A DNA stretch of 42,286 nucleotides from Pelagibacteraceae bacterium (GTDB lineage: Bacteria; Pseudomonadota; Alphaproteobacteria; HIMB59; GCA-002718135): positions 1 through 42,286 of the forward strand of contig JAGFWP010000033.1 in NCBI GenBank assembly GCA_017639935.1. The letters run 5' to 3'. Position numbers and translations under genes: made by a program. The notes beneath the pieces are model-generated. The model was not told the DNA's origin. It searched no databases and saw nothing but the letters and a program-made list of their open reading frames with translations. Of the stretch, positions 4,757-6,788 are shown in pieces (position 1 is the first letter of the stretch; every line of letters starts with the position of its first letter).

Positions 4757-6187
4757 TTAAGCGTCGTAATATAAGTGAAATTCGTGTGGATGAGGTCTGA
4801 GATTTATTGGATCAACCTCGTTTTCCCTTTTATAACTGAGATAGGTTTCGATAACATCTTTCGTGAATACATCGCCTTGCAACAAGAATTTATGATCTTT
4901 CTCTAATGCATCTAAAGTTTCAGCTAAAGAACCGGGTGTTGATGGAATCTTTGATAATTCTTCTTCTGAGGCAGCATAAAGATTAATATCAGTTGGTTTG
5001 CCTGGATCGATTTTATTATTAATTCCATCTATTCCAGCCATAAGCAAAGCTGAAAATGCTAAATAAGGATTGGCAGTTGGATCTGGAGGTCTAAATTCCA
5101 TCCTTGTTGCTTTTGGACTTTGAGAGTAAACAGGAATTCTAACACAAGCACTTCTGTTTCTTTGAGAATAAACAATGTTTACGGGAGCTTCAAAACCAGG
5201 AACCAGTCTTTTGTACGAGTTTGTTGTCGGAGCACAAAAAGCAAGAAGGGCAGGAGCATGTTTTATTACCCCGCCGATATAATTTAAAGCCAGGTCACTA
5301 AGGTTGGCATAATTACCCTTTTTGTACATCAGAGTTTCTCCGTTTTTCCACAAACTTTGATGAACATGCATTCCTGACCCATTATCTTCAAATAGAGGTT
5401 TTGGCATAAAAGTTGCAGTCATACCGTGTTGTTTCGCTACATTTTTTACAACATACTTATATTTCATTACATCATCAGCCATTGCTAATAATGGAGAAAA
5501 TTCTAAATCGATTTCACACTGCCCCGCTGTTGCAACCTCATGATGATGAGCCTCAACTGACATACCTATATCCTGCATTGTCATTACCATTTCAGTTCTA
5601 ACATCCTGAAGCGTATCAACTGGGGGTAAAGGAAAATAACCTTCTTTGTGTCTTGGTTTATGACCTAGGTTAGGATTTTCATCCCCGCCACTATTCCAAG
5701 TTCCTTCTGTTGAGTCAACTTCATAAAAAGAAAAATTTGAACCTGAATCATACTGAACATTATTAAATACAAAAAACTCTGCTTCAGGACCAAAAAATGC
5801 CGTATCTCCAATTCCTGAAGATTTGAGATATGCTTCAGCTTTTTTAGCGATGTTTCTAGGATCTCTGGAATAATCTTCTAGTGTTAAGGGATCTTTGATA
5901 TTGCCATGAAAAACAATTGTTTTTTCTGAGAAAAAAGGATCAATAAAAGCAGTGGTGACATCAGGTAAAACAATCATGTCACTGTTATGAATTTCTTGGA
6001 AACCTCTAACTGAAGATCCATCGAAACCAAGACCTTCAGAGAAAATACTTTCATCTAAAAATTTGATTGGCAACGTAAAATGTTGTGTTGTTCCTGGTAT
6101 GTCAGTGAAACGGACATCAACCATTTTAACATCCAGATCTTTGATGTTTTTTAACAACTCACTTGGAGTTTTGCAGTTAAATTTCAT
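4757..6187 (-). CDS. glnA: Glutamine synthetase, type I
   Basis: Makes glutamine from glutamate, ammonium and ATP as a cytoplasmic dodecamer; the main ammonium assimilation step. The 476-aa protein has the GSI features in order: [22 protein letters not shown] (metal site), [28 protein letters not shown], an active-site [12 protein letters not shown] segment, and [10 protein letters not shown]. The adenylylation-loop tyrosine is kept ([11 protein letters not shown], about residue 404). The start is ATG at 6185-6187, with GAGG at 6198-6201 (minus strand) 10 nt upstream. The leader holds two glutamine-aptamer-like elements and a hairpin, so expression is probably controlled by glutamine at RNA level. 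It sits directly downstream of glnB and an aminotransferase gene and is closed by its own terminator. Confidence 0.98.
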
Positions 6188-6197
6188 AATAAAATAA

Positions 6198-6201
6198 CCT
6201 C
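6198..6201 (-). promoter_or_regulatory. Ribosome binding site of glnA
   Basis: Minus-strand GAGG lies 10 nt before the glnA ATG. It is followed by TT, so AGGTT can pair with AACCT in the 5' arm of the upstream hairpin (6218-6240). This makes it a candidate target of riboswitch control. Confidence 0.6.
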
Positions 6202-6217: not shown

Positions 6218-6240
6218 TCAACCTTAACCATTAAGGTTGA
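6218..6240 (-). promoter_or_regulatory. Perfect hairpin between riboswitches and glnA
   Basis: Ten base pairs (6218-6227 with 6231-6240) close a 3-nt loop. On the minus strand it lies after the second aptamer and about 30 nt before the glnA start. No T tract follows it, so it is not an ordinary terminator. It is a candidate expression platform for the riboswitches. Confidence 0.6.
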
Positions 6241-6286
6241 TGCGAGTACTCTATCATGCTCTAGTTATGAAAGTTCTGCATTTGGT

Positions 6287-6336
6287 GCGCGTTCCTTCAG
6301 CTTTCACTTACTTCCGACCCAATGGGTTGAACGATT
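6287..6336 (-). ncRNA. Glutamine riboswitch (glnA RNA), aptamer 2, proximal to glnA
   Basis: Read on the minus strand, the element has the glnA-RNA layout: outer stem CGTTC pairing with GAACG, a hairpin ACCC-ATT-GGGT, the conserved junction GGAAGTA, and the 3' block GAAGGAACGC. It is the second of two consecutive copies in the leader of glnA, the classic target of this glutamine-binding family. Identification is by eye from the consensus. Confidence 0.85.
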
Positions 6337-6348
6337 TCTAACTTTTGC

Positions 6349-6410
6349 ATGCGTTCCTTCGACAATCAGTCTACTTCCGACTCAAACAATTAAGATGAGT
6401 TGAACGATTG
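6349..6410 (-). ncRNA. Glutamine riboswitch (glnA RNA), aptamer 1, distal
   Basis: This copy has the same layout on the minus strand: outer stem CGTTC/GAACG (extended by flanking bases), an ACTC/GAGT hairpin with a longer loop than copy 2, the conserved GGAAGTAG, and CGAAGGAACGC. Twelve bases separate it from copy 2. The conserved blocks are nearly identical between copies while stems and loops differ, as expected if the RNA structure is selected. It starts about 40 nt after the glnB stop codon. Confidence 0.87.
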
Positions 6411-6449
6411 AAGTTCTTTTATTTATTTCTTTAATTTTGTAAAGAAAAA

Positions 6450-6788
6450 TTAAACTGCATCGCTGCCTTTCTCACCAGTTCTAATCCTCATCACCTGTTC
6501 AATATTTGATACAAATATTTTACCATCTCCAATTTTTCCCGAAAAAGCAGCTTTTTTTATTGATTCAATTGCTTTTTCAGCAATATCATCTTCAACAATG
6601 ATTTCTATCTTTACTTTTGCATGAAATTCATCATCAAAGTCTTGGTCTTTGTCTAGACCTTCTTGACCTCTTTGTCTTCCAAAACCCTTAACTTCAATTA
6701 CAGTCATTCCAGATAAATCTATTTCATGTAAAGCATTCTTTACAGGTGATAGTTTGAAAGGCTTGATTATTGCTTCAATTTTTTTCAT
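6450..6788 (-). CDS. glnB: Nitrogen regulatory protein PII, with an altered T-loop
   Basis: Small trimeric signal protein that reads ATP/ADP and 2-oxoglutarate and controls nitrogen enzymes or transporters. The 112-aa length is typical. It keeps MKKIEAIIKPFKL, VKGFGRQRG with Gln39, Lys58, the B-loop GKIGDGKIFV, and the C-terminal RIRTGEKG. The T-loop has normal length but is changed: residue 51, the tyrosine uridylylated by GlnD in enterics, is Phe, and residue 46 is Asp instead of Tyr. The loop is also very acidic (DKDQDFDDEF). It is therefore probably not uridylylated. It starts 3 nt after the aminotransferase stop and precedes the riboswitch leader of glnA. Confidence 0.93.
   Translation of the reverse strand: MKKIEAIIKPFKLSPVKNALHEIDLSGMTVIEVKGFGRQRGQEGLDKDQDFDDEFHAKVKIEIIVEDDIAEKAIESIKKAAFSGKIGDGKIFVSNIEQVMRIRTGEKGSDAV

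Follow-up and report, generated by a model that had tools for sequence, protein, structure and literature searches.

Tandem glutamine aptamers in the glnA leader of a marine alphaproteobacterial family, and a proposed translational mode of action

The leader of glnA in the window, by which we mean the whole stretch of 42,286 nucleotides analysed here, carries two type 1 glutamine-riboswitch aptamers in a row, and such tandem arrays are the rule in the alphaproteobacterial family to which this genome belongs. We hypothesise that the pair controls glnA, most likely at the level of translation, with high glutamine lowering glutamine synthetase, and we give this reading a probability of roughly one half. 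A wider and more tentative proposal, which we hold to be possible but clearly less probable, is that this RNA sensor replaced the GlnD-PII-GlnE cascade, that its two aptamers pull on the ends of a single linker, and that a helix formed by this linker (PL) inverts the ON response known from cyanobacteria, so that glutamine would repress both glnA and ammonium uptake.

Two aptamers in the glnA leader

A preliminary description of this DNA had placed two glutamine aptamers on the minus strand at 6287-6410, and had proposed the Rfam glnA covariance model as a check. When this search was run (RF01739, cmscan, gathering score 35) it returned exactly two matches in the window, both full length (1-53 of 53) and on the minus strand, namely aptamer 1 at 6408-6348 (61.4 bits, E 2.6e-11) and aptamer 2 at 6335-6286 (62.0 bits, E 1.7e-11), and the earlier coordinates were therefore correct to within 2 nt. 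E values of about 1e-11 rule out chance matches. There is no match to the type 2 model (RF01704, Downstream-peptide) in the window, and no further RF01739 match elsewhere in the 1.33 Mb genome. Plain folding was uninformative for this leader (z -0.64). The elements of the leader, in the order of transcription, are as follows.

6450-6788, minus strand: PII protein, 112 aa (PF00543), with a T-loop lacking the YRGAEY motif
6439-6444, minus strand: -35-like hexamer CTTTAC of a candidate leader promoter, at a conserved position
6416-6421, minus strand: -10-like hexamer TAAAAG, 17 nt after CTTTAC
6352-6406, minus strand: glutamine aptamer 1, from the P1 strand CGUUC to its partner GAACG (RF01739, 61.4 bits)
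6334-6351, minus strand: linker CATGCAAAAGTTAGAAAT, the predicted 5' strand of helix PL, whose first base is C60 of aptamer 1
6290-6333, minus strand: glutamine aptamer 2 (RF01739, 62.0 bits)
6255-6272, minus strand: putative switching strand TTTCATAACTAGAGCATG, which complements the linker (PL) and, over part of its length, the glnA start
6218-6240, minus strand: hairpin UCAACCUUAA-UGG-UUAAGGUUGA without a T-run, between the switching strand and the ribosome-binding site
6198-6201, minus strand: probable Shine-Dalgarno GAGG, 10 nt before the ATG, from a reading of the sequence
6182-6189, minus strand: glnA start codon region UUAUGAAA, complementary to UUUCAUAA of the switching strand
4757-6187, minus strand: glnA, type I glutamine synthetase, 476 aa (PF00120; TIGR00653, 662 bits)

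Both copies have the architecture of RF01739, that is, a three-way junction closed by P1 (CGUUC/GAACG), with CGGAAGUA in J2/3 and a C directly after P1, and they also share GAAGGAACGC. P2 and P3 are unlike between the copies and yet keep their pairing (P2 is ACUCA/UGAGU in one and ACCC/GGGU in the other), which bears out the earlier remark that the inner stems differ with compensation. The features of the three-way junction are conserved across the tandem loci described below, and the glutamine-binding residues are conserved, each copy being predicted to bind glutamine.

On the minus strand the gene order is an aminotransferase (7949-6792), PII (6788-6450), the aptamers and then glnA, whose start lies 102 nt from the end of aptamer 2. 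The aptamers thus occupy a leader position before a nitrogen-metabolism gene, and this gene, of type I, is indeed the glnA that had been supposed. A generic sigma-70 scan missed the candidate promoter; in all 38 distinct regions upstream of glnA, nevertheless, CTTTAC comes 38-40 nt before aptamer 1 and is followed about 17 nt later by a -10-like TAATTA or TAAAAG, and from this we infer a transcript whose 5' end is close to the start of aptamer 1. In the arrays before amt1 and the ATP-grasp gene, for example at loci L016 and L045, there is a palindrome of the form TATGCA-N5-TGCATA about 75 nt upstream of aptamer 1. It has a fixed place in all 65 distinct regions upstream of amt1 and ATP-grasp genes and is present in none of the 38 upstream of glnA, and may be an operator or a terminator belonging to the preceding gene.

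Hosts, regulated genes and the protein glutamine sensors

The order HIMB59 (= AEGEAN-169) comprises two GTDB families, HIMB59 and GCA-002718135 (PMC10734472), and on this structure the window's family is probably GCA-002718135. Among 60 relatives searched, 34 have RF01739 matches, all of them within the window's own family, where the riboswitch is present in 34 of the 35 or 36 genomes sampled, with 2 to 8 aptamers each, the window's own genome counted among the 34, and two members (G001 and G008) without it; in the sister family it is found in 0 of 24 genomes. In a sample of 385 genomes from the class, RF01739 occurs only in the window's family and in one other (f10), there as a single aptamer, and among 399 genomes from the phylum only in the window's own genome. 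The tandem pattern was also found in at least 120 stretches of GTDB contigs, nearly all in records titled as single-cell genomes or MAGs of marine Alphaproteobacteria. Hence the alphaproteobacterial host that had been deduced from neighbouring genes is upheld by the same arrays, with the same linker, in many contigs of this class and throughout the family. One record titled Chloroflexi bacterium (L103) carries the same amt array, and is probably a mislabelled or contaminated MAG contig.

Two aptamers are present at 136 of 143 distinct loci, the remaining seven being the three single-aptamer loci of f10 and others which lie at contig ends or contain unread bases. Downstream of these 143 loci are glnA (42), ammonium transporters (about 60, two in a row in some genomes) and a circularly permuted ATP-grasp gene (33), which is followed by Alpha-E and transglutaminase genes. 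This ATP-grasp gene (CP_ATPgrasp_2) lies under glutamine aptamers in two alphaproteobacterial families (L045:2555-5747; L033:1590-2996), tandem in the window's family, with Alpha-E and transglutaminase downstream, and single in f10, which hints that the little-known operon is part of glutamine or nitrogen metabolism.

The protein sensors of glutamine show the reverse distribution. GlnD occurs in none of the 36 genomes of the window's family, its own genome included, and in all 24 of the sister family; for GlnE the figures are 0 of 36 and 22 of 24. The PII proteins of five sampled genera in the window's family are missing the T-loop motif GHTELYRGAEY, which the sister family keeps in its two PII types and f10 in one PII, and the PII of the window (6450-6788) likewise has an altered, acidic T-loop; the motif that is uridylylated elsewhere thus appears to be lost in this family. 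Two neighbouring families therefore contrast sharply, one having GlnD and GlnE without the riboswitch and the other the riboswitch without either protein. As this is one contrast between two lineages it counts as a single event, and the pattern does not show that the riboswitch caused the loss or made up for it. G001, one of the two members without the riboswitch, is missing type I glnA and PII too. For NtrC (TIGR01818) every genome gave matches through shared domains, none above the cutoff, and we therefore draw no claim from them.

The linker, the switching strand and the sign of the response

The linker between the aptamers is 16-18 nt long and near-invariant across the 136 tandem loci (many loci were collected by a pattern requiring GCATGC after aptamer 1, and the linker is the same in those found by the Rfam model alone). 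It consists of CATGC, one to three A-rich bases, AGTTAT and an A-rich end. A second conserved block lies 3' of aptamer 2, reading ATTTCATAACTAGAGCATGA in glnA arrays and, in most of those of amt and ATP-grasp, AATTTCCATAGCTAAGCATGA, and is complementary to the linker, such that CATGC faces GCATG and, after a small internal loop, AGTTAT faces ATAACT. In our model the two strands would form the helix PL, enclosing aptamer 2. The window has its own version, AGTTA-GAAA against TTTC-A-TAACT, with a duplex energy between linker and switching strand of -11.2 kcal/mol. As the linker is misplaced between gene classes in the MAFFT alignment (A1), the test of PL used duplex energies and shuffled strands in place of pair counts on that alignment. 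Every distinct variant forms the duplex, with a mean of -10.0 kcal/mol; shuffled strands average -3.8 (sd 1.8) and equal the real duplex in 0.85% of cases. Both sides have changed in a few variants (GGTTA/TAACT at L044; the linker TTTGAA with TTCATAACT), most pairs being invariant, and the case for PL therefore rests on complementarity, with limited covariation.

The fact that most PL pairs never vary, together with the existence of phage tandem arrays that have linkers of 8-11 nt and no such strand, would also be in keeping with two aptamers that act independently, the complementarity being incidental or serving mRNA stability, protein binding or the like. However, the complementarity is kept in every variant, including those with matching changes (L044, the TTTGAA linkers and the window), and fewer than 1% of shuffled strands match it, so that we regard independence as improbable.

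When the downstream part is folded alone with RNAalifold, the glnA block pairs with the start codon (TTTCATA/TATGAAA) and the amt block with the Shine-Dalgarno (TTTCCAT/ATGGAG), which suggests a translational switch in both kinds of leader. Compared with 206 other starts, drawn from 273 kb of the window's genome, the match of switching strand to start stands at a median 7th percentile in the glnA group, the 16th for ATP-grasp and the 24th for amt, and swapping strands and starts between gene classes indicates a match that is only modestly specific. Pairing that hides the start is likely across the glnA group; for the window by itself the case is weak, 32% of other starts pairing as well, which is no better than chance. 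For the arrays before ATP-grasp, a reading of the sequence suggests as target a small ORF upstream, whose end lies next to the ATP-grasp start.

The hairpin that follows the switching strand raises the matter of transcription attenuation, in which certain members would use it as a terminator, with the switching strand as antiterminator. Other leaders have a hairpin at the same place, with changing sequence, and in some glnA leaders (e.g., L005, L070, L091) it is followed by 5-7 T; in amt2 the switching strand CATAGCTA is, on reading its sequence, complementary to the 3' arm of the hairpin, TAGTTATG. Yet there is no terminator-like site or T-run after the hairpin in the window, and none of these T-runs in amt1 leaders or several other glnA leaders, and we consider attenuation distinctly unlikely.

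The translational mechanism that we propose would use a transcript in which promoter, aptamer 1, linker, aptamer 2, switching strand, spacer hairpin, ribosome-binding site and start follow each other in this order. At low glutamine the switching strand would be held by the linker in PL, leaving the glnA start open. When glutamine binds, G23 enters at the foot of P1 and pairs there with C60, the base just 3' of P1 (PMC11477058), and bound glutamine would in this way draw C60 into the aptamer. C60 of aptamer 1 would be the outermost pair of PL, and P1 of aptamer 2 would be abutted by its inner end, so that binding at either aptamer should loosen PL, and the two may act cooperatively. Once freed, the switching strand would cover the glnA start or, in amt leaders, the Shine-Dalgarno. 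If PL keeps the start free, the same C60 chemistry would give an OFF switch, which would suit glnA and amt.

When C60 of aptamer 1 is blocked in a crude folding model, the expected PL pairs of amt leaders fall from 10.3 to 3.7 and their start-hiding pairs rise from 0.35 to 4.3. The glnA leaders are in the start-hiding fold in every state of the model, which consequently predicts no switch for glnA, and the competition for C60 involves one base pair only. With both P1 stems forced, the best fold of the window contains PL, which would also suit an ON switch. In such a switch of opposite sign, glutamine-bound aptamer 2 would bring linker and switching strand together, PL would form, the start would be freed and expression would be turned on. 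The type 1 and type 2 switches of cyanobacteria are ON switches (PMC6316151), and PL encloses aptamer 2 and folds compatibly with both P1 stems. On the other hand, it would make little physiological sense for glutamine to stimulate, by positive feedback, its own synthesis and the uptake of ammonium, and C60 of aptamer 1 should be unable to pair with both G23 and PL, to judge from PMC11477058; we take the ON reading to be unlikely. Because the modelled glnA leaders hide the start in every state, and because the forced fold contains PL, it is mainly from physiology that we infer repression by glutamine.

Comparison with known systems

Earlier work had already described the aptamer class and, from marine metagenomes, its tandem copies next to glnA, PII and amt genes (Weinberg 2010, PMC2864571). 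A 2018 review describes glutamine riboswitches as restricted to cyanobacteria and ascribes their occurrence beside glnA, PII and amt to strains not in culture (PMC6316151), whereas we find that these arrays belong to widespread ocean alphaproteobacteria. The host family and the mutual exclusion with GlnD and GlnE appear to be new. The anatomy of PL and switching strand also appears new, although an earlier description of linker pairing is possible (Ames 2011, Klahn 2018).

The arrays resemble type 1, or glnA, RNA (RF01739) in having all conserved blocks of the aptamer and in lying upstream of glnA. They differ in their host, an alphaproteobacterial family, and in a conserved linker helix and switching strand that lie outside the 53-nt Rfam model, and the cyanobacterial members studied are single-gene ON switches. 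Tandem glutamine aptamers are also common in viral contigs (L164-L253, IMG/VR), upstream of small phage ORFs. These marine phage arrays likewise have two RF01739-like aptamers in a row and a translational anatomy, but their linker is 8-11 nt long, PL is absent and a Shine-Dalgarno hairpin starts directly from C60, which closes it in 33 of 34 distinct cases, with stems that covary (CACCT/GGGTG, CATCT/AGATG, CAATCT/AGATTG, CACTC/GAGTG). Since C60 closes this hairpin, glutamine binding should open it, matching the cyanobacterial ON response (PMC6316151). In one phage-like contig (L202:4394-4834, minus strand) two aptamers with a 25-nt linker precede a short ORF similar to the N-terminal portion of a glutamine synthetase of the eukaryotic type (GSII).

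Type 2 (RF01704) shares the ligand and a related core, but is picocyanobacterial and occurs with other genes. In the tandem glycine riboswitch, too, a single leader contains a pair of aptamers with the same ligand, joined by a structured linker (predicted in the present case). Its linker pairs with the 5' leader. The glycine aptamer is unrelated, and here the linker would instead pair with a strand 3' of aptamer 2, which offers a concrete model, open to mutation, for how two aptamers might be coupled in a tandem riboswitch and its output inverted.
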